Positions 7,733-21,065 of a DNA stretch of 22,838 nucleotides are shown here, piece by piece. A program made the position numbers and the translations under genes. The DNA comes from a virus, in IMG/VR virus record IMGVR_UViG_3300044530_000787, positions 1-22,838 of that record; one strand, given 5' to 3'. The notes below the pieces were generated by a model. It worked only from the letters and a program-made list of their open reading frames with translations. It was not told the origin of the DNA and made no database searches. The first letter of the stretch is position 1. Every line of letters starts with the position of its first letter.

Positions 7733-9448
7733 TTATAAGTACCTTACTATAATAGCTGCCGATCCTGCTGGTGCTGTTGCGAAAGTTAATGTTGTTCCTG
7801 ATATAGTATAATCTGATGTTGGTCTTAAACAAGAACCGTTAACAAAAACCAATAAATCATTTACGTTTCTACCACTATTGATTGTTAATGTTGTAGTTGA
7901 ACCATCACCTGTGGCCGTTTCTGTTATATTTCCTATAACTATTTTGCCTGCCATTGATGAATGGTTTTGACATACATAATATATTGTTGTGCTTAAATTA
8001 GAAGGAACTTCGTAGTATAAAATACCACTCACTTTAAGTAGAGCAGAAGCACCAGTTGTTATCGCACCTGTTAATGATACGTGAGTTAAACCTGTTGTGT
8101 AAGCATTACCTGAACTATATGCTCCTGAAACTGTTTGTAAATGAAAAGGATGGCCAGTGACATTATTTAATCTAAAAGCATATGTTTGTCCTGGTCTGAA
8201 ATATAAAGTAGGATTGTTTCCTGAATAATGTGAGTTAAATTGATATGAACTAAAACCACTATTTGTTACATCTATTAATGCGGCCGTTTTAATTAAATCT
8301 CCTGTGCCTGGTACAAATTTACCACTTGCACTCACCCAAACTAAACCTTGTTGGTCTGATGGAGCTTGTGTAACTAAATCAACGTCTGTAAATAAATTAA
8401 TACTAGAGTTTTCGTTTGCAATTTCGTTCCAACCACCACTGTCAGCAAAATATGCTTTTGCTGTACCTGTTACTACGGCTAATGCACCTTGATATGTTGT
8501 AGCATCTGGTCTAGCGCCAGTAGATGCAAAGTTAAATCTTAATTTATTTCCTGAACTTGTTAAATCAATTGTGTTTGCTGAACCTGTTAAAGAAAGGCCA
8601 GCGATAGAAGTTGTTGTTCCTCCTAATGATGTTGAAGTTGAACCTAATGTTATAGTTGAATTTGCTAACTGAGCATTTGAAACTCCGCCACTTTTAATTG
8701 TTACATCTCCTGTTGAAACTAAAAAACTTGCAGTGTTAAATGTAGCAACACCTGCATTTGCTGAAGTTGCTAATTCAGCAGAAATAGTTAATGAACTTGC
8801 ACCCACTATAGTATTGATTCCTTCGCCTGCTAAAAATTCTAATTTACCACCTAAAGCTACAGAATTTTGAGTTGATGATTCATCTGTAAATCTTATATAA
8901 GGAAGTGCTAAATTTGCATTTGTGATTCCTGCTGAACCATTTAAATTTGTATTTGTAAGGCCTGATATTGTATTACTTGAAGCAACAATAGTTTTGTTAG
9001 ATAATGTGTTTATAGATGTTGATGTAACAACAGTATTATCTAATTGTATATTAATTGTATCGCCTTGACTTACTGTAGTTGTAATGCCATCATTACTTTT
9101 AATTTTTAAAGTGCCACCTAATGCAATAGAAATAGCAGAAGAAGAATCATCTCTTATACTAAAACTTGAATTTGTTAAAGAAGAATTACCAATGTTAGAT
9201 AGTGTGTTACTTGCACCACTGATTGTTTTATTTGTTAAAGCAACCGAGTTAGTACTTGTAACGATTGCCGTTGCACCTGATAATAAATTTAATTCTGTAG
9301 GTGTAGCAGTAAGTGTAATTGCTGTACCATTACCTAATGCTGTATAGATTTCATTAAAGTTATCATTAACAATTATTGCACCAGAACGCAGGTTTGTACC
9401 TGTTCCATCGTTTGCTACTGCACCTATATTAATTGTCTGTTTAGCCAT
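7733..9448 (-). CDS. Fibre-like baseplate protein with gp9/gp10-type N-terminus and cupredoxin-like domain
   Basis: This 571-residue virion protein has four regions. Residues 1-40 (QTINIGAVANDGTGTNLRSG, then a VNDNFNEIYTALG helix) match the N-terminal attachment domain of T4 gp10 and resemble that of gp9. Residues 40-390 are Ser/Thr/Asn-rich repeats typical of a trimeric fibre, with a doublet SIALGGTLKI...GI (108-122) and SVALGGKLEF...GI (196-211). Residues about 405-507 resemble a plastocyanin-like fold: TLYFRPGQTYAFRL, HPFHLQ with H433 and H436, and YYVCQNHSSMAG with C493, H496 and M499 as possible copper ligands. Residues about 510-571 form a fibre end domain seen in many marine phage proteins (NDLLVFVNGSCLRPTSDYTI). 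It sits between gp7 and gp8 with a late promoter box at 9466-9473. Copper binding is inferred; the C-x2-H-x2-M spacing is shorter than plastocyanin's C-x2-H-x4-M. Confidence 0.85.
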   Translation of the reverse strand: MAKQTINIGAVANDGTGTNLRSGAIIVNDNFNEIYTALGNGTAITLTATPTELNLLSGATAIVTSTNSVALTNKTISGASNTLSNIGNSSLTNSSFSIRDDSSSAISIALGGTLKIKSNDGITTTVSQGDTINIQLDNTVVTSTSINTLSNKTIVASSNTISGLTNTNLNGSAGITNANLALPYIRFTDESSTQNSVALGGKLEFLAGEGINTIVGASSLTISAELATSANAGVATFNTASFLVSTGDVTIKSGGVSNAQLANSTITLGSTSTSLGGTTTSIAGLSLTGSANTIDLTSSGNKLRFNFASTGARPDATTYQGALAVVTGTAKAYFADSGGWNEIANENSSINLFTDVDLVTQAPSDQQGLVWVSASGKFVPGTGDLIKTAALIDVTNSGFSSYQFNSHYSGNNPTLYFRPGQTYAFRLNNVTGHPFHLQTVSGAYSSGNAYTTGLTHVSLTGAITTGASALLKVSGILYYEVPSNLSTTIYYVCQNHSSMAGKIVIGNITETATGDGSTTTLTINSGRNVNDLLVFVNGSCLRPTSDYTISGTTLTFATAPAGSAAIIVRYL

Positions 9449-9465
9449 TGATTAATCTTTCTCTA

Positions 9466-9473
9466 TATTTATA
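9466..9473 (-). promoter_or_regulatory. T4-type late promoter box upstream of the fibre-like gene
   Basis: An exact TATAAATA on the minus strand sits in the 31-base gap after the gp7 stop, 17 bases before the ATG at 9448. The predicted +1 is near 9460, giving a leader of about 12 nt with a weak GAGAAAGA ribosome site. Confidence 0.75.
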
Positions 9474-9479
9474 ATCATT

Positions 9480-12083
9480 TTAAGGCGTTGTGTCATCAAA
9501 AGTTATAGGGTTACCATCTGTGTCAATTGTTTGGTCAAATTTTGTAGGAGTATTATCAAATTGATTAAATGGTGAAATTATAAATATTTCTGACGGCATA
9601 GTCAATTTAGTTTTAATAAATCTGCCTAATTCCGTTGAACAAAAGAGAAATGTATTATCTTGACCATCTAAAGATGATTGTGTTCCAAAAGTAACGTTAT
9701 TACCTAATTCTTCTATTGAATAATTTGTTCCTGATTGTCTAATAAATGATTTTAATATTTCTCTATTGATTGTTGAATATCTAGGGCCAGCGTAGGCAAA
9801 TCCGTGAGATATATTAACACCATCAAAAACACCTCTTAATCTTGATAGATATGCTATGTTTATAGGAGCTCTTGTTAAAGTAATATCTCTTGTTGTTGAA
9901 CTAAAAGGAGAAATTGTACTTGTATTTAAATCAGCTGCCGTTCCTACATTCGGAGTTGCTCTTAAAGATGTACCATCATCCACTGTACCTAATCTTCTAC
10001 CAAAAATTGTAGTAAATAAAGTATTAACAATTGAGAAGAATGGATCGTCAATTACGCCTGTATTTGCACCTGTAATTGGTGTAGATATACGAGCGTTCAA
10101 TCTTGATTCAACATTTACTTGACCTTCAAAATAAAAACCAGAAGTGTGCATAGTTTTTTTGAAATCATCTCGCCAATCAACAATAGAACGGCCTACTTTT
10201 ATTACATAAGAAAAATCTTGATAGTATAAACTATCTTGTATGTTCATTGTGTTTTCAGAAAGAAAACCATCTTCATTTATAAATCTACCATCTAAATCTG
10301 CAACAGCCCCTACAGCCAATGTAGCAGTAGCAAAATCAAATTTTTTAATTGTTGCTGAACCACTTAAACTATTTACCGTATCATTAACATTAATTGTTCC
10401 TGAATTATTTTTTAAAGATAATAATCCTCTAGCTGCGTTAAAACTTACAACTGTGGCCGTAACACTACCTGATATTGTTACAGTTGTATTTGCAATAAAT
10501 GTTCCTGTAACTCCGGTAACAATACAATTTTTAAAAAAGTTAAGAGTAGGAGGAGAAGGAGCTAATTGGTGATTTATTCCTAATTCTACTATTTTTAAAT
10601 CTAATACTTTTCCTACTTCATCACCATAAGCTTTTAATATGGCATTTTGACCTGCTGATGTAATAGATACAGTTGGTAATGTAGTATAACCTGAACCTTT
10701 ATCGTATAAAAATATATCTGTTATATCTCCAATATCTGTTCCAGATTCTTGTACAAATTTATTACCAAAATAAGTATCATCTTGCATTGTGGCATCTTCT
10801 AATACAATGTGATCTTCTGTTGTGCTTGTACTATCTTCAGGTATAAATCCTCCGTTAACAACAGAAATAAATCCTGCAACTCCTGCTCCATTTGTGCCAG
10901 TATTAACAAAAACTAAATCATCACCTATAGAATATCCAGCACCTGCATTATCTATTATTATTTCTGTAATACTACCTGAACCTATGTTATTAGTTTGAAT
11001 TATAGCACCATCACCGCCACCTGTTACTGTTACCGATTCAGTTGAAGTGTGTAATGATCCATCGTTTGTAATTATTTTTGTAGTAGGAATTCCTGAAATT
11101 GTAGCTTCAATCAATAAATCGTCTGTGTCGTTTAAAGTTCCTGTTATATTTTCTCCAACTGTAAAATTTCCTACAATACTATCTGAACTTAAAACAAACT
11201 CAGATATAAGAGTAGAACCAATTAAAAACTTGGTTACACTTTCTACTATTGCTATTGTATTTGAAGTTGAACCTGTAATTGTTCTGCCCACTAAGTTAGA
11301 TGTATCTCCTGCTACAGTAATAGCTCTTAAAACTTTATTTGTTGTAAATTTACCATCAGATACTCTTAAAATTTGTTCACGTGGATAAAATGTTTCTGAT
11401 ATTTCATCAAAAAGTAATCTAAAAAATACCTCGTGGCCACTTTTTGTACCTTTTGACTTATATAATGATTTAATATTTTTAATTAAATTTCTTTTATTAA
11501 CATTAGAATTTAAATTTTCAGGTAAAGTAGTTAAAAATTCATTTCTAAAGTTACTTAAAAAATTAGATATAACTTTATCAGGATCTCTAAAGTTTAATAA
11601 CTCTTGTATATTGTTTACTGGATTTGGTTTGTAATTATTAATTACAGCACTTGCATTAGAAGATGAACCTAATATAGTTTCTCCTTTGATAAATTTATCT
11701 TGTGATATAATAAATAATCTACTGTTATTTAAATCTTCTGATAATATTGTAGATGTTGCTTTAGAAGTTTGACCAACAATCGTTTCACCTCTTGTAAATT
11801 TACCAAACGTAGAACTTTCTAAAAGTATTTTATCGCCTTCATCTAAAGCTGTTCTATCAGAATCAATACGAGAGCCATCTAATATTAATTCATTCTGTTG
11901 GTTTGTTTGAGTTTCTAATTGAATGCCGTCTGTAGTTTGAATTGATGTAACTGCTAACTCGGCAGCTTCCATAAATGAATAATATGTTTTTAAAAATTGT
12001 AAAAATTTAGGATGGTCGTCAAGTACAAAATCAGGTACTTGTGAACCTATAAGGTTTGAAAGTTTATCTTTAAATATAGCCAT
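9480..12083 (-). CDS. gp7: Baseplate wedge protein gp7 homologue (equivalent to the C-terminal part of T4 gp7)
   Basis: This 867-residue wedge protein follows gp6 as in T4. Its N-terminus (VPDFVLDDHPKFLQFLKTYY, residues 16-35) aligns by eye with the late part of T4 gp7 (DSNFEAFCEAYIQYL). A block near 198-240 (NLIKNIKSLYKSKGTKSGHE, then FFRLLFDE) aligns with T4 YSTKGIEASYKFLFKVLYNE. A third block near 615-650 (SYVIKVGRSIVDWRDDFKK, then MHTSGFYFEG) aligns with T4 SYYVMKIKSNLPSSRWKSD and its following HPVGFGF. The protein therefore covers the T4 C-terminal core and lacks T4's long N-terminal part. Inserts carry G-E-x-I-x-G-x-S repeats (for example KFIKGETILGSSSNASAVI) and GSGYTTLPTVSI-type motifs. 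No strong ribosome site is seen; the start is 5 bases beyond the gp6 stop, so coupling is likely. Confidence 0.82.
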   Translation of the reverse strand: MAIFKDKLSNLIGSQVPDFVLDDHPKFLQFLKTYYSFMEAAELAVTSIQTTDGIQLETQTNQQNELILDGSRIDSDRTALDEGDKILLESSTFGKFTRGETIVGQTSKATSTILSEDLNNSRLFIISQDKFIKGETILGSSSNASAVINNYKPNPVNNIQELLNFRDPDKVISNFLSNFRNEFLTTLPENLNSNVNKRNLIKNIKSLYKSKGTKSGHEVFFRLLFDEISETFYPREQILRVSDGKFTTNKVLRAITVAGDTSNLVGRTITGSTSNTIAIVESVTKFLIGSTLISEFVLSSDSIVGNFTVGENITGTLNDTDDLLIEATISGIPTTKIITNDGSLHTSTESVTVTGGGDGAIIQTNNIGSGSITEIIIDNAGAGYSIGDDLVFVNTGTNGAGVAGFISVVNGGFIPEDSTSTTEDHIVLEDATMQDDTYFGNKFVQESGTDIGDITDIFLYDKGSGYTTLPTVSITSAGQNAILKAYGDEVGKVLDLKIVELGINHQLAPSPPTLNFFKNCIVTGVTGTFIANTTVTISGSVTATVVSFNAARGLLSLKNNSGTINVNDTVNSLSGSATIKKFDFATATLAVGAVADLDGRFINEDGFLSENTMNIQDSLYYQDFSYVIKVGRSIVDWRDDFKKTMHTSGFYFEGQVNVESRLNARISTPITGANTGVIDDPFFSIVNTLFTTIFGRRLGTVDDGTSLRATPNVGTAADLNTSTISPFSSTTRDITLTRAPINIAYLSRLRGVFDGVNISHGFAYAGPRYSTINREILKSFIRQSGTNYSIEELGNNVTFGTQSSLDGQDNTFLFCSTELGRFIKTKLTMPSEIFIISPFNQFDNTPTKFDQTIDTDGNPITFDDTTP

Positions 12084-15785: not shown

Positions 15786-15943
15786 TGGAAAAACCAGTAA
15801 TTAAAGACATTAACTATACAGGCTCCTTTGGTAAATGTTATCTTGTAAAGTATAAAGGCTTTTCTAATGTAATGTTAAAAGAAGAAATTGCTGATTGGTG
15901 CGAAGAAGTTGACCAAATAAAAGAAGAATTACAGTCTACCTAA
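15785..15943 (+). CDS. Small protein (52 residues), unknown
   Basis: ATG at 15785 overlaps the previous stop by one base. The frame encodes MEKPVIKDINYTGSFGKCYL, then VKYKGFSNVMLKEEIADWCE and an acidic/lysine helix ending in S-T. Its 3' end overlaps the 3' end of the convergent epimerase gene by 15 nt (15929-15943). No family is recognised. Coupling to the upstream gene supports that it is real. Confidence 0.65.
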   Translation: MEKPVIKDINYTGSFGKCYLVKYKGFSNVMLKEEIADWCEEVDQIKEELQST

Positions 15944-16693
15944 TTTTAATACTTTATCTAAGTCTAAATTTCTTAAAAAAACCCATACTGACATTGTAGG
16001 TTCCCACCCTAATTTTTTCAATTCACTATTATCGCTGGCATTACTTTCAGCCTCACAAGGGTCGCCTTTTCTTAATGGCACTTTAAATCCAGCTTCTTCT
16101 ATTACTTCTTTTACACTATATAAATGACCAGAACTTACTTCATAAGTTTTGTTTTTATCTTTCAATCCTAACTTAACAAATAATAATATAGCGTTGACTA
16201 CATCATCAATGTAAATAAAATCTCTTTTATGATTTGTTTTATATTTTACAGTACCATTTACTATATAATCAAATAACATTCCTTTACGTGGAGTTTCTCC
16301 GTATGTAGTGGCAAATCTTAAACCGACTTGGCCAGGATGTGCGGCCTCTTCCATCATTAACTTACTTTTACCATATGGCGATTTAGTCCAGTTATGTACA
16401 GAAGAACTAGAAGCGTATAAACAAGGTATATTTTTTTCGTTACAAAGATTAAATATTCTTTTACTGTAATCTACGTTTGTAATAAAATAAGGTGCAGGAT
16501 TTTTAACACTATCTCTTACATTGGCCTTTGCAGCCAAATGAATTACAAAATCCTCATCACCATTCAATGTAAAATCTTTGATGTCTTTGTTAAGAGATAA
16601 ATCGTAACAAACTAGTTGATGTTTTTTTCTAAGTAATCTTTTTTTTAAATTACTACCTATAAAACCTTCACTGCCTGTTAGTACTATTTTCAT
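15929..16693 (-). CDS. NAD-dependent epimerase/dehydratase (extended SDR)
   Basis: This 254-residue member of the extended short-chain dehydrogenase family normally converts nucleotide sugars. The Rossmann glycine motif is TGSEGFIGSNL (residues 6-16). HLAAKANV is at 52-59, the serine-rich strand LYASSSSVH at 92-100, and the catalytic tyrosine and lysine are in YGKSK (Y107, K111). GLRFATTYGE (124-133) and RDFIYIDDVV (158-167) are the usual later motifs. At 254 residues it is shorter than typical UDP-glucose 4-epimerases (about 310-340), mainly in the middle and C-terminus. The substrate cannot be read from sequence. Its start lies inside the end of an upstream 58-residue gene (26-nt overlap). 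A role in modifying sugars for capsule or surface glycans is inferred. Confidence 0.88.
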   Translation of the reverse strand: MKIVLTGSEGFIGSNLKKRLLRKKHQLVCYDLSLNKDIKDFTLNGDEDFVIHLAAKANVRDSVKNPAPYFITNVDYSKRIFNLCNEKNIPCLYASSSSVHNWTKSPYGKSKLMMEEAAHPGQVGLRFATTYGETPRKGMLFDYIVNGTVKYKTNHKRDFIYIDDVVNAILLFVKLGLKDKNKTYEVSSGHLYSVKEVIEEAGFKVPLRKGDPCEAESNASDNSELKKLGWEPTMSVWVFLRNLDLDKVLKLGRL

Positions 16694-16844
16694 ATATAAT
16701 CCAAGGATAATAAAAAGCCGTTACCAAATCAATTTGTTTATAGGTAATATTCCAAACACATTCCATCCACTCACGTTCATAATTATATTCTTGGAAGTTA
16801 CCTGCATTATAGTTATGTAAACTATTTGTTCTGTCTGTGTGCAT
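16668..16844 (-). CDS. Small protein (58 residues), unknown, overlapping the epimerase start
   Basis: ATG at 16844-16842 opens a frame ending TGA at 16670-16668. The protein starts MHTDRTNSLHNYNAGNFQEY and continues NYEREWMECVWNITYKQID to an aromatic segment (AFYYPWIIY). It overlaps the epimerase gene by 26 nt in a different frame. An exact late box (16854-16861, minus) precedes it, with a predicted leader of only about 4 nt. The tryptophan-rich content argues against random translation of AT-rich DNA. No family is recognised. Confidence 0.6.
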   Translation of the reverse strand: MHTDRTNSLHNYNAGNFQEYNYEREWMECVWNITYKQIDLVTAFYYPWIIYENSTNRQ

Positions 16845-16853
16845 TTATAATAT

Positions 16854-16867
16854 TATTTATATAAATA
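16854..16867. promoter_or_regulatory. Palindromic, bidirectional late promoter
   Basis: TATTTATATAAATA is a perfect 14-bp palindrome that contains an exact TATAAATA on each strand: 16860-16867 on the plus strand and 16854-16861 on the minus strand. The plus copy faces the 49-residue gene at 16895 (predicted leader of about 22 nt with AAGGAGA). The minus copy faces the 58-residue gene and the epimerase. Confidence 0.7.
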
Positions 16868-16894
16868 CTTCTGCCAATTAAACAAGGAGAAGCA

Positions 16895-17044
16895 ATGGCT
16901 AAGAAAAAAAAAATAGTTACTCCTGAAGATATAATTGAGTCCATAAGAGATAAGCAAACTGAAATTGACGATTTATTACTAGACCTAGAAGAAAGCATTA
17001 CGTCACAAGTTGACGAGGATGTGGACGAGGACGAAGAAGAATAG
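16895..17044 (+). CDS. Small charge-segregated protein (49 residues)
   Basis: A strong AAGGAGA ribosome site (16884-16890) and an exact late box precede the ATG. The protein has a basic start (MAKKKKIV), a helix TPEDIIESIRDKQTEIDDLL with further LDLEES, and a very acidic end (DEDVDEDEEE). This looks like a short helical protein with a highly acidic tail; an interaction or chaperone-like role is possible but unproven. A 9-bp hairpin follows the stop, making this a compact one-gene late unit. The family is unknown. Confidence 0.75.
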   Translation: MAKKKKIVTPEDIIESIRDKQTEIDDLLLDLEESITSQVDEDVDEDEEE

Positions 17045-17057
17045 TATCTATATTTCA

Positions 17058-17081
17058 GGTGCCTAGAAATAACTAGGCACC
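17058..17081 (+). terminator. Hairpin, probable terminator
   Basis: A perfect 9-bp stem, GGTGCCTAG paired with CTAGGCACC, has a 6-base AAATAA loop. It begins 13 bases after the stop of the 49-residue gene and is followed by CTTTGATT, a poor T-run, so it may be a weak intrinsic terminator or an mRNA 3'-end stabiliser. Confidence 0.65.
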
Positions 17082-17105
17082 CTTTGATTCACAAACAAAG
17101 GACGT

Positions 17106-17234
17106 ATGGAAAAATACATAGGCGTTATATTACTTGGCATCATTGTTGGTGGTTTAACCTATATCTATTTCTCAATACGTATCAATCCAAAACCATACTT
17201 TAAAAAAAATAAAAAGCCTAAAAAGAGAAGATAA
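17106..17234 (+). CDS. Small single-pass membrane protein (42 residues)
   Basis: An AAAGGA ribosome site lies 5 bases before the ATG. The protein begins MEKYIGVILLGIIVGGLTYI and has one membrane helix (about residues 4-24) followed by a basic tail (NPKPYFKKNKKPKKRR). The positive-inside rule suggests the tail is cytoplasmic. Its stop lies within the late-like box preceding the 507-residue gene. The function is unknown. Confidence 0.7.
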   Translation: MEKYIGVILLGIIVGGLTYIYFSIRINPKPYFKKNKKPKKRR

Positions 17235-17237
17235 ATA
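17230..17237 (+). promoter_or_regulatory. Late-like promoter box before the 507-residue gene
   Basis: GATAAATA differs from the late consensus at one position and is followed by 5 bases and the ATG at 17243. The predicted +1 is that A, as for gp25 and the 136-residue gene. A second ATG at 17239 is in another frame. Confidence 0.45.
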
Positions 17238-17242
17238 TATGG

Positions 17243-18766
17243 ATGCAAGTATTTTGTATTCGTGTAGGTAATAAATTAAGCCAATTATATGAAGAATATT
17301 TAAGAAATAAACTTCTTGATTATAATTTTAATTGCATAAGAGAACCTTACAATAAAAAAATTTTACATCAGTGGAATAAATTATATCTAATGAACTTGGA
17401 TATAAATGAACCTATATGTGTTATTAATCCTGATATTCTATTACTAAACGACTATAAACAACTTTTTAATTACCCTATAAAACAAGGACAATTTATTGCA
17501 ACATCTAAATGGTGGGAAAATAATAAACAATATAACATAGATAATTGTTTTTATAAATTTTATCCTAAAGATTGTAAATACATTTATAATAAATTTATAT
17601 CAAATATAGATAATTATACAGACGAATACAAATCAAACAAATTTACTTTTGAAATACAAGATGGTGAACAATATTTTATAGAGGATAATATAAAAAAAAA
17701 ATTAAAATTAATTACAGTGCCTAATGAATGGTCTGGTAGATGTTTGCCTGGAAAAGATAAAAATAAAGAATTTGATAACAACATAAAAATAGTAAGTTTT
17801 AAAAACTATTATGATGATCCACTTACTATTAAAAAACCACATCAATGGAAACATTACAAATTATACAACACTGATAACTATGAAGATACTTTTTATATAT
17901 CAGATTATAAAGATTCAACTAAAAACATATCAGAAAATTTATATGCCAATAATTTTTTTATTAAAGATAATGCAAAACATATACTAGAAGATTTTACATT
18001 TTATGAATTTACATTAAAAGAATTAGGTTTACCAAGTGCTGACGTTATACTAAAAGGTGTAAAAGCCATAGAAGAAAAAGTAGGATTAGAAGGTTGGAAA
18101 ATAAATGGTGGTGAAAACAAAGGTATATATGAAGGATTTTCTTTAACATATAATAAAGATTACTTTGATAAAGATGTTTCAGTATATCATCAAACTTGGG
18201 GCCATAAGTTACAGAAACAAATTTTTAGTGGTAGAGTAGATTTAGGTAAACATAATAATCAAAAGAATAACTATTATGACACGTTTGGTTTTAGAAATAT
18301 GCACGATATAATCTATGACAATTTTAAAGAATTAATAGATAGATTAAATATGCCTTTATTAAGAAGCCGTGTTGCATATCTCTGGCATCATAATGACATA
18401 TATGATAATTTTTTAGACAATTGGCACGTAGATGAACCATCTTTTGAAATGTTAAGAATTAATATACCTTTACAAACAAGACCTGAATTTCAAATACGTA
18501 TAAAAGGTTCAGATTGGCACGGTAATACTTTTGAAATGGAAAAACATTTAGAAGTAGGTAAAGTTTATATATGGAATACAAACATACCACACGCCTATGG
18601 TTCAGTACACGGTGCACCAGAGGATTTTGAAAGAATACATTTGGTTCTTGGATTATCTACTTATTTTGATTATAATAAAGAAAAAGATTGTTTTATTAAA
18701 AACAAAAACTATGGTATGAAAATGAAAGACATTGTTTCTCAAAAATTGTTTGTTAAAACCACTTGA
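17243..18766 (+). CDS. Two-domain protein: glycosyltransferase-like N-half and Asp/Asn-hydroxylase-like 2OG-Fe(II) oxygenase C-half
   Basis: This 507-residue protein has two parts. Residues about 1-215 resemble short GT-A-like phage glycosyltransferases: a CVINPDILLLND strand (59-70) with a possible metal-binding aspartate, a hydrophobic FIATSKWW, and KIVSFKNYYDDP followed by KPHQWKHY (182-205). Residues about 290-475 carry the facial triad and 2OG-binding arginine of the Asp/Asn beta-hydroxylase type: NWHVDEP with H395 and D397, the distal histidine in NIPHAYGS (H450), and R464 in FERIHLVLGL. The C-half call is the firmer one. Together these could build and oxidise a glycan or modify a protein, but no substrate is readable. 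Codon use is very AT-rich, more so than the neighbouring nuclease gene. Its stop overlaps the -35 element of the next promoter. Confidence 0.75.
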   Translation: MQVFCIRVGNKLSQLYEEYLRNKLLDYNFNCIREPYNKKILHQWNKLYLMNLDINEPICVINPDILLLNDYKQLFNYPIKQGQFIATSKWWENNKQYNIDNCFYKFYPKDCKYIYNKFISNIDNYTDEYKSNKFTFEIQDGEQYFIEDNIKKKLKLITVPNEWSGRCLPGKDKNKEFDNNIKIVSFKNYYDDPLTIKKPHQWKHYKLYNTDNYEDTFYISDYKDSTKNISENLYANNFFIKDNAKHILEDFTFYEFTLKELGLPSADVILKGVKAIEEKVGLEGWKINGGENKGIYEGFSLTYNKDYFDKDVSVYHQTWGHKLQKQIFSGRVDLGKHNNQKNNYYDTFGFRNMHDIIYDNFKELIDRLNMPLLRSRVAYLWHHNDIYDNFLDNWHVDEPSFEMLRINIPLQTRPEFQIRIKGSDWHGNTFEMEKHLEVGKVYIWNTNIPHAYGSVHGAPEDFERIHLVLGLSTYFDYNKEKDCFIKNKNYGMKMKDIVSQKLFVKTT

Positions 18767-18797: not shown

Positions 18798-19229
18798 ATG
18801 AGAATATTATTATTGATATTAATGTTTCTACCCTCTTTGGCGCTGGCGAAGGAAGTAGAAATGAAAGTGTATGATTATAAATTAACAAGAGTATTAGATG
18901 GTGATACTGTAGGTTTTGAAGCGAAATTTCTACCAGATCCACTTAAAAAAGAATTACTAATTCGTGTTTATGGTGTTGATACACCAGAAAAAGGACACCG
19001 TGCTCAATGTCCACAAGAAAACACAAAGGGTTTAGCTGCAACTGAATTTACAAAGACTACAATTGCGAATGGTAAAAAAATACAAGTTGCCATTGCCACT
19101 TGGGATAAGTTTGGTGGTCGTGTATTAGGTGATGTATTAATTGATGGCAAATCATTACGTGTTGCATTAATCAAAAACGGTTATGCACGAGAATATTATG
19201 GCCTTGCAAAAGAGTCGTGGTGTAATTAA
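18798..19229 (+). CDS. Secreted thermonuclease (staphylococcal nuclease family)
   Basis: This 143-residue Ca2+-dependent nuclease of the SNase family has an N-terminal signal peptide (MRILLLILMFLPSLALA, cleavage likely after A17), so it should act outside the cytoplasm. The active-site residues are all present: DGDTV with D36 (SNase D21), R56 (R35), D61 and E64 in VYGVDTPE (D40, E43) and R108 in DKFGGRVLG (R87). C71 and C142 could form a disulfide in the periplasm. The start is fixed by the signal peptide and by a sigma70 promoter only 6 bases upstream. It overlaps the next gene by one base (TAATG). Possible roles are scavenging extracellular or periplasmic DNA for nucleotides, or attacking competing DNA; both are inference. 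Confidence 0.92.
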   Translation: MRILLLILMFLPSLALAKEVEMKVYDYKLTRVLDGDTVGFEAKFLPDPLKKELLIRVYGVDTPEKGHRAQCPQENTKGLAATEFTKTTIANGKKIQVAIATWDKFGGRVLGDVLIDGKSLRVALIKNGYAREYYGLAKESWCN

Positions 19230-19804
19230 TGAAGAACATACGTATTATAAAAGAGAATATAGACGTATCAGGTATTGTAAAACAATTAGAACAACATCCT
19301 GAAGATTGGGGAAATGTGGGCCGTATGAAAGGCACCGATCGCCAAGACCCTCATACACGTTTAGTTACAGCAGGTGTACTTCAATTAGTAATGGGAGGTA
19401 TTTCAAAACCTGGTGAGTTTATTGGTGACACAGAAATATGTGTGCCCACTGAAGCCGCTTCAAGACACACCGAGATCCAACGATTCCTGGCCGAAAATAA
19501 CTTTGGTAGAAGATTAGGCCGTTGCGCTTTTCTTAAAACACCTATTGGTGAAATCACAGGCAAACATATAGATGAAGGAAAGTATTATCTCACAAAAGAC
19601 CGTTATCATTTGAGTATCACAGGCACTTATCGTTACAGTGTTTGGGACCACGGTGATTTAGAATTTACGAAAGAAGAAGTGATTATAGAACCAGGTACTT
19701 TCTTCTGGTTCAACAATAAGAAAAACCATATGGCCGAGAATATAGGAAATTGTGAGAGAATTGCTTTTATATTTGACGTACCAATGTCGCCAACAAATCC
19801 TTAG
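19229..19804 (+). CDS. Aspartyl/asparaginyl beta-hydroxylase-like 2OG-Fe(II) oxygenase
   Basis: This 191-residue protein has the conserved C-terminal core of the Asp/Asn beta-hydroxylase family. Iron ligands are H113 and D115 in GKHIDEG and H167 in KKNHMAEN. RYHLSITG (125-132) and the EPGTFFWFNN turn (154-163) are family hallmarks, and R177 in CERIAFIFDV would bind 2-oxoglutarate. Residues 1-95 are not recognised. The ATG overlaps the nuclease stop by one base, so both are translated from the same sigma70-driven transcript. Its stop overlaps the stop of the convergent 136-residue gene by four bases. It could hydroxylate a host or phage protein; the target is unknown. It uses more G+C-rich codons than the 507-residue gene. 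Confidence 0.85.
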   Translation: MKNIRIIKENIDVSGIVKQLEQHPEDWGNVGRMKGTDRQDPHTRLVTAGVLQLVMGGISKPGEFIGDTEICVPTEAASRHTEIQRFLAENNFGRRLGRCAFLKTPIGEITGKHIDEGKYYLTKDRYHLSITGTYRYSVWDHGDLEFTKEEVIIEPGTFFWFNNKKNHMAENIGNCERIAFIFDVPMSPTNP

Positions 19805-20224: not shown

Positions 20225-20399
20225 TGCTTTCTTTGTATATGAATTGTTTACCACAATAAAAACAAACTGCTCTAGTCTGGCCATCCTTATATTCCTTTAG
20301 TGTATAATAGACCAAAGGATGAGTTGCCTCTTGTTGCACTTCATCATAACCATCACAAGAAACCTCGTGTGTATTTGTATATAAGATTGTTTTAATCAT
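20220..20399 (-). CDS. CHCC zinc-finger protein (NDUFS6/zf-CHCC-like), 59 residues
   Basis: ATG at 20399 opens a 59-codon frame ending TAA at 20222-20220. The protein has the zf-CHCC pattern: VSCDGYDE with C15, THPLVYYTL with H27, then AVCFYCGKQFIY with C46 and C49. That family (V-x-C-D-G...GHP-x-VY...CPYCG) includes the mitochondrial complex I subunit NDUFS6 and short alphaproteobacterial proteins, where it binds one zinc. The 3' end of the 2OG oxygenase gene overlaps its start by 8 nt, so the two are probably co-translated. What a phage copy does is unknown: interference with host respiratory complex assembly and a general metal-binding role are both possible. Confidence 0.8.
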   Translation of the reverse strand: MIKTILYTNTHEVSCDGYDEVQQEATHPLVYYTLKEYKDGQTRAVCFYCGKQFIYKESI

Positions 20400-20952
20400 T
20401 TATAATTAAATGTTTCATTGATTGTACAAACTCTTCCCAGGTTCTTTCTTCATATTTTGGTCTAATTGATATAGCATAACGACTTTCTGTAGTATGATTA
20501 TTATAACCTGTATGTGGTACTGAAGCATTAACAAGATAGGCACAATTATTTTCCATAGGGTATATTTTATCCGGTAATGATTTTGTTTCTATGTCTATAC
20601 GTGGCCGACCTGCAACGTCATATACAAGTGGTTTAAGTGTATAATTCTTTGGATTGTCCCAATACTTCATACCACCATTCCCACCGTGTACCCAATTGAT
20701 ACCGTAAATTTTAGGACCTCCACGACCATCAATATGTATTACTTCATCTCTACTTCTATTTGGCCTCTTTTTAAAAGCAAGACCAAAACCATCCTTCCAA
20801 TTATATTCATTAAAATTAAATTTATTTACATCAAATACTGTATTCAAATTTCTAATATCGGTAACCAATGAGTTCATATGAAATTTTATATCATAACCTG
20901 GCCGTAGATAGTGTTCTACCTTAGGTAGATTTAATTTATAGACATATTCCAT
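20392..20952 (-). CDS. 2OG-Fe(II) oxygenase-like protein (186 residues)
   Basis: From the ATG at 20952 this encodes 186 residues beginning MEYVYKLNLPKVEHYL. A longer in-frame start at 21024 exists, but its 24 extra codons lie over a separate 33-residue membrane gene read in another frame, so I reject it. The oxygenase triad is H73 and D75 in VIHIDGRG, H147 in SVPHTGYN and R158 in TESRYAISIRP, with GINWVHGG and MKYWDNP between. Similar small proteins occur in marine T4-like phages from memory. The substrate is unknown; hydroxylation of a protein or small molecule is inferred. It is the second gene after a strong sigma70 promoter at 21072-21100 and runs into the CHCC gene. Confidence 0.75.
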   Translation of the reverse strand: MEYVYKLNLPKVEHYLRPGYDIKFHMNSLVTDIRNLNTVFDVNKFNFNEYNWKDGFGLAFKKRPNRSRDEVIHIDGRGGPKIYGINWVHGGNGGMKYWDNPKNYTLKPLVYDVAGRPRIDIETKSLPDKIYPMENNCAYLVNASVPHTGYNNHTTESRYAISIRPKYEERTWEEFVQSMKHLIIND

Positions 20953-20963
20953 ATAATTATAAC

Positions 20964-21065
20964 TTAGATATAACCGTAAACCAAACAAAACAAATAGGTG
21001 GCCAGTGAAGTACCACCAATCCATAGTATATCAGACCATATTGCTTTTTTATTCCACTTAGACAT
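20964..21065 (-). CDS. Very small membrane protein (33 residues)
   Basis: ATG at 21065-21063 starts MSKWNKKAIWSDILWIGGTS and continues LATYLFCLVYGYI to TAA at 20966-20964. The result is a basic N-terminus followed by one membrane helix (about residues 12-32). A near-perfect sigma70 promoter lies 6 bases before the ATG, which makes this frame the natural first gene of the unit and argues against the overlapping longer start of the oxygenase. Its stop is 11 bases before the oxygenase ATG. The function is unknown. Confidence 0.75.
   Translation of the reverse strand: MSKWNKKAIWSDILWIGGTSLATYLFCLVYGYI

Follow-up and report, generated by a model that had tools for sequence, protein, structure and literature searches.

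A fused gene beside the baseplate genes of a T4-type phage

The window, i.e., the whole stretch of 22,838 nucleotides that was analysed (IMG/VR virus record IMGVR_UViG_3300044530_000787), contains T4-type baseplate genes encoding gp6, gp25, gp8 as well as gp10- and gp5-like proteins. As gp6 is 70.5% identical to that of Pelagibacter phage Mosig EXVC030M and 58% identical to that of HTVC008M, the window is, judged by its sequence, a fragment of a pelagimyophage-like T4-type myovirus close to Mosig. Mosig itself encodes PF05118 hydroxylases along with small GT-A proteins. The structural region of pelagimyophages holds a large hypervariable host-recognition cluster; GT8 is their best-represented glycosyltransferase family, and their core proteins include an Asp/Asn beta-hydroxylase (PMC7029224).

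A single open frame on the plus strand (positions 17243-18766) encodes a protein of 507 amino acids, in which an N-terminal half resembling GT-A glycosyltransferases (residues 1-205; 17243-17857) is followed by a 2-oxoglutarate (2OG)/Fe(II) oxygenase domain (residues 226-507; 17918-18763). The two halves are separated by a short junction (residues 206-225; 17858-17917), at which the end of the glycosyltransferase family meets the start of stand-alone oxygenase ORFs in the alignments. The divergent neighbour on the minus strand (15929-16693) is an NAD-dependent nucleotide-sugar epimerase (PF01370, E 2e-21), which is kept in two related contigs, L001 (4486-5226) and L005 (4390-5154). Two short open frames rich in A and T lie in the interval between epimerase and fusion (16690-17242), together with a hairpin at 17058-17081 that resembles a terminator.

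Downstream of the fusion, a PF05118-like hydroxylase of 191 amino acids is encoded on the plus strand (19229-19804; PF05118 E 0.0026, below the cut-off), and a corresponding gene also lies by the fusion in L001 (7556-8125). Between these two genes the window carries a gene for a secreted-looking staphylococcal-nuclease-like protein (18798-19229, plus strand; PF00565, E 2.1e-11), which is missing from the corresponding point in L001. A further ORF of 210 amino acids on the minus strand (20392-21024) has an H-x-D motif (IHIDG) and later PHTGYN...SRYAISIR and may represent a third 2OG/Fe oxygenase within 4 kb; searches of Pfam, PHROG and NCBIfam returned no match for it. At the same place, L001 has two other oxygenase-like genes (8537-9746, minus strand), one of which belongs to PF13759 (2OG-FeII_Oxy_5, E 2.6e-19). 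As different oxygenase-like genes occupy this position in the window and in L001, oxygenases seem to be exchanged in this island even among close relatives.

The fused protein is conserved and under purifying selection

The sequence-only reading of the locus had proposed that one polypeptide joins the two halves, and this was confirmed. The independent contig L001 (IMGVR 3300021091) encodes the same protein of 507 amino acids with 86% identity, collinear and without gaps, and the fusion is thus not an assembly accident. The third contig, L005, encodes the N-half as far as the contig end, which lies inside the N-half. Two complete fused sequences are known, and the frame is intact in all three contigs. 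Only in the window and L001 did the profiles of both halves match within one ORF. Nei-Gojobori comparison of the window with L001 yielded dN/dS values of 0.24 for the N-half and 0.15 for the C-half, and a codon-level comparison of amino acids 1-130 with L005 yielded 0.17-0.19. Both halves are under purifying selection, with an N-half dN/dS of 0.17-0.24. Together, the L001 orthologue, the N-half of L005 and the low dN/dS values demonstrate that the gene and both of its halves are real and constrained.

Searches with the whole protein found no useful relative in Pfam, NCBIfam, PDB sequences or 50,697 cultured phage records, and the best PHROG match (E 0.003) was to families of unknown function; IMG/VR yielded L001 as the one full-length relative.

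The C-half has the fold and active-site residues of an Asp/Asn-hydroxylase-type oxygenase

Modelled separately by AlphaFold from family alignments, the C-half gave a confident structure (pLDDT 89.6, pTM 0.90). The best structural match was the caprazamycin beta-hydroxylase Cpz10 (PMC9814697), which superimposed with a Z score of 16.0 over 164 of 168 residues (2.2 A, 18% identity); AspH superimposed with Z 12.0. Viral Asp/Asn/Pro hydroxylases were the top named viral matches, and PLOD-type structures were not among the structural matches listed, which does not argue against such matches. The proposed active site was found intact at the residues named in the earlier reading: the putative iron ligands H395-V-D397 (18425-18433) and H450 (18590-18592) and the presumed 2OG-binding arginine R464 (18632-18634), all on the plus strand, were invariant in 32 of 32 relatives.

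Comparison of the C-family profile with PF05118-type proteins gave a probability of 97.6 (E 3e-12), with HxD, H and R in register. The gathering score of PF05118 was not reached by the fusion or its C-half, neither of which matched this or any other 2OG-family Pfam model, and relatives reached E 0.016; the C-half is a distant relative of the PF05118 proteins that lies outside the Pfam model. As had been suggested, the C-half is thus by predicted fold and active-site residues an Asp/Asn-hydroxylase-type 2OG oxygenase, for which hydroxylase activity is predicted.

A GT-A domain without the usual catalytic signature forms the N-half

The separate AlphaFold model of the N-half, also obtained from family alignments, reached a pLDDT of 80.4 and a pTM of 0.82, and the fold search returned GT-A proteins as the earlier reading had anticipated. 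LgtC superimposed with Z 13.7 over 193 amino acids (3.4 A), further matches were WbbM, glycogenin, UGGT and the PBCV-1 capsid glycosyltransferase, and the Foldseek matches included LH3 chains and BoGT6a (4cjb, 4ayl). The N-family profile aligned with phage GT-A proteins (probability 95, E 2.6e-8), placing the NPD/DID position on their DLD. PF01501, the Pfam model for GT8, did not match in the window, L001 or the stand-alone N-half relatives tested. Fold and family show that the N-half is derived from a glycosyltransferase of the GT8-like GT-A type. Since stand-alone proteins form a GT-A family to which it belongs (family A5), it is not simply an ordinary substrate-binding extension of the oxygenase.

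In GT8 enzymes, the DxD motif and a C-terminal histidine provide the metal ligands, and an N-x-G stretch lines the donor site. These sites were compared between 26 stand-alone and three fused sequences, of which L005 ends before the last site. All three differ in the fused lineage. The DxD position is occupied by N62-P63-D64 (17426-17434) in 3/3 fused proteins versus DID in 26/26 stand-alone proteins; D100-N101-C102 (17540-17548) stands in 3/3 fused proteins in place of the family NGG (26/26); and V184-S185-F186 (17792-17800) is found in both complete fused proteins versus V/I-H-F in all 26 stand-alone ones. In addition, about 27 profile positions upstream of the VSF strand are absent from both complete fused proteins, the profile match breaking at model positions 176 and 204 (at approximately 17765-17770; all plus strand). 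Part of the invariance of DID stems from the retrieval pattern, since many matches had to contain [ND][PI]D to be found, while that of NGG and VHF is independent of it. The QWNK, GEQ and KPHxW regions are largely retained in the fused N-halves, as is D64. Among 75 family-invariant positions, 23 are changed and 50 are kept in the window protein, and the chance that the three named motif residues all fall among the changed ones is 0.026, which is only a moderate excess.

The motifs NPD (62-64) and KPHQWKHY (from residue 198) had been taken as GT-A features; both are present within a GT-A fold, but NPD departs from the family DID. Compared with its stand-alone relatives, the glycosyltransferase half of the fused lineage has seemingly lost the usual donor- and metal-binding signature. 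With DxD, NGG and the C-terminal histidine replaced by NPD, DNC and serine, canonical metal-dependent sugar transfer by the fusion appears unlikely. The suggestion that a single polypeptide combines sugar transfer with oxidation is thus unsupported as it was put, and the motif losses make an active sugar transferase in the fusion less likely; as for the epimerase, which had been proposed to supply a nucleotide sugar, the observation is that it is a conserved neighbour. The motif losses are no proof of inactivity, since the GT6 enzyme BoGT6a is a GT-A enzyme that is active without DXD and without metal (PMC3961637).

The two families also occur as separate, adjacent genes

Two-sequence alignments (A1/A2) used as search queries recovered only L001 and L005, the conserved stretches picked from them being uninformative. 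For the C-half, an alignment (A3) was therefore devised in which rows 3-5 were artificial sequences, with variation introduced outside four guessed motifs. Its sole role was to steer the pattern search: tblastn against the real window protein confirmed each match, and the artificial rows were used nowhere else. The N-half family was searched with a real four-sequence alignment of N-halves. Both families consist of separate phage proteins: N-half relatives of about 233 amino acids occurred in 304 stretches and C-half relatives of about 275-300 amino acids in 105 stretches (second scan), the best 80 loci being kept in each case.

The split orthologues that the earlier reading had proposed to look for were indeed found. 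In 21 non-redundant C-family loci, an oxygenase gene is directly followed by an N-family glycosyltransferase gene, with the ends usually overlapping; this order is opposite to that of the fusion, in which the glycosyltransferase comes first. Among the best 80 of the 304 N-family loci, 11 were directly preceded by a C-family oxygenase and another 15 by a different ORF that resembles the C-half only in part or weakly; the examples of the latter that were inspected have an HxD...H pattern, and one reaches PF05118. The occurrence of the halves as separate but neighbouring genes in related phages suggests that they act jointly in decorating a phage or host molecule.

In the oxygenase tree, the tandem members formed one clade (SH-aLRT 99 with 75 rows; 100/99 with 32 rows), which in the 75-row tree also includes two members whose glycosyltransferase gene lies slightly further off and one without such a gene. 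The fused C-half fell into a separate supported clade (97 with 75 rows; 99/97 with 32 rows). The other members of this clade have no adjoining N-family gene, and three have one about 3.4 kb away on the opposite strand. As the fused oxygenase lies outside the tandem clade, the families probably came together on two or more occasions, which is the simplest explanation of the tree; one ancient linkage with later losses and a reversal of the gene order would also be compatible with it.

A cellular origin was considered and rejected. Of five loci in bacterial assemblies, four are distant (30-33%) and lack a gene of the glycosyltransferase family; the fifth, in a Flavobacteriales MAG contig (L140), has the phage-type tandem pair and is near-identical to viral contigs. 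Upstream of many N-family glycosyltransferase genes lies an ORF of 428-488 amino acids without Pfam match, which represents an uncharacterised partner family (e.g., L061, 4563-6026, and L090, 4724-6007; plus strand). A third kind of glycosyltransferase-oxygenase pairing occurs in L010 (4510-7608, plus strand), where a C-family oxygenase directly follows a GT34-type gene (PF05637, E 8.7e-22) and precedes a nitroreductase gene (PF00881).

Possible function of the fused protein

We favour, at roughly even probability, an interpretation in which the fusion is a two-domain phage tailoring enzyme consisting of an active hydroxylase that is guided by a repurposed, probably non-catalytic GT-A domain. 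The C-half would act as a 2OG/Fe(II) hydroxylase of the Cpz10/AspH type, and the N-half may bind or position a glycan, a nucleotide-sugar or a (glyco)protein for hydroxylation. The gene lies in a modification island that adjoins the baseplate genes of this pelagiphage-like myovirus of T4 type, and the enzyme may be directed at a structural protein of the phage, a glycan on the host surface or a small metabolite that carries a sugar. Among these candidates a protein- or peptide-linked side chain would be favoured, as the enzymes with the closest solved folds act by beta-hydroxylation of amino-acid side chains. In the balance that leaves this interpretation about evenly poised, the oxygenase fold with its invariant HxD...H...R, the GT-A fold with its motif losses and the deletion of about 27 positions, and the purifying selection speak for it, as do the tandem pairing in 21 non-redundant loci and the solved precedent of the accessory GT-A domain of LH3. 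On the other side of the same balance stand the activity of BoGT6a without DXD, the retention of GEQ, D64 and KPHxW, the availability of only two complete fused sequences, the merely moderate excess in joint motif loss (0.026) and the partly retrieval-made invariance of DID.

The nearest architectural precedents would be the collagen-modifying LH3 (PLOD3) and mimivirus L230, which likewise have one or more GT-A domains N-terminal to a 2OG/Fe hydroxylase on a single chain. The middle GT-A domain of LH3 has been interpreted as a domain that no longer catalyses and works as an accessory element beside the hydroxylase (PMC6082870), and the Foldseek search with the N-half returned chains of LH3. 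The fusion differs in being a bacteriophage protein with only one GT-A domain, which is without DXD, and the nearest solved folds to its C-half are Cpz10 and AspH; sequence similarity to either was not detected, and collagen-like Gly-X-Y runs that might form a neighbouring substrate were absent from the ORFs examined. The C-half shares its fold over nearly the whole Cpz10 chain and the HxD...H...R pattern with the PF05118 fold group, but differs in its low identity to Cpz10, its score below the Pfam cut-off, its long N-terminal extension and the fused GT-A domain. The N-half likewise shares the GT-A fold over about 190-200 residues with GT8-type enzymes (LgtC, glycogenin and the catalytic domain of UGGT), but lacks DxD, NGG, the C-terminal histidine and a PF01501 match. 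The combination of GT-A domain and 2OG hydroxylase is already known from LH3 and L230. In marine myophages, numerous 2OG oxygenases and glycosyltransferases without an assigned role are encoded close to the structural genes. Fusion and recurrent tandem pairing place one class of oxygenase and one of glycosyltransferase in a common pathway, providing a testable hydroxylation/glycosylation system. A glycosyltransferase fold apparently repurposed as the non-catalytic partner of a hydroxylase would parallel the accessory domain of LH3 in animals.

It is possible, though somewhat unlikely, that the fusion is truly bifunctional like LH3 and L230: the C-half would hydroxylate a residue or a carbon of a sugar, and the new hydroxyl would then be glycosylated by the N-half, acting as a metal-independent GT-A enzyme. 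L230 performs both hydroxylation and glycosylation (PMC9546862), the N-half is under constraint, the tandem pairs link an intact glycosyltransferase to the same oxygenase family, and BoGT6a, a GT-A enzyme with altered DXD (PMC3961637), is itself among the structural matches. However, BoGT6a is not fused to an oxygenase and has NXN where the fusion has NPD, and in the fusion three separate motifs and a loop are altered, i.e., more than DXD alone, with no metal-replacing basic residues shown. The extended version, in which the fusion is a phage counterpart of LH3/L230 with a metal-independent GT-A domain and the split oxygenase-glycosyltransferase operons of marine phages carry out the same hydroxylate-then-glycosylate reaction with canonical glycosyltransferases, is unlikely.

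The islands around C-family genes in other phages contain genes for radical SAM proteins, nitroreductases, an AMP-ligase, methyltransferases, GNATs, other glycosyltransferases and other putative 2OG oxygenases, several of these names resulting from reading of the sequences without a family match. Their content points to a tailoring pathway and fits a protein, glycan or small-molecule substrate alike. It might accordingly be proposed that the oxygenase acts on a sugar, a lipid-linked glycan or a small metabolite instead of proteins, in a natural-product-like pathway in which the glycosyltransferase half is only a sensor of nucleotide-sugars or glycans. Cpz10 indeed acts on a nucleoside-antibiotic intermediate (PMC9814697), and LPS-related glycosyltransferases are common in pelagimyophages (PMC7029224). 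We nevertheless regard this as quite improbable, as no intermediate or product is known and the location of the island among virion structural genes equally fits a virion target. Finally, that the N-half is functionless and decaying after a chance fusion, so that the oxygenase alone matters, would agree with the motif losses and the deletion but is very improbable given its low dN/dS, the frame intact in three contigs, the family-invariant positions kept and the confidently predicted fold.

In three further loci (L158, 4732-8732; L160, 4771-7589; L166, 4738-7544), a C-family oxygenase heads an island of radical SAM-like, TauD-like and GNAT-like genes. These islands adjoin tail-fibre-like ORFs of marine phages, the names again being based on reading of the sequences.
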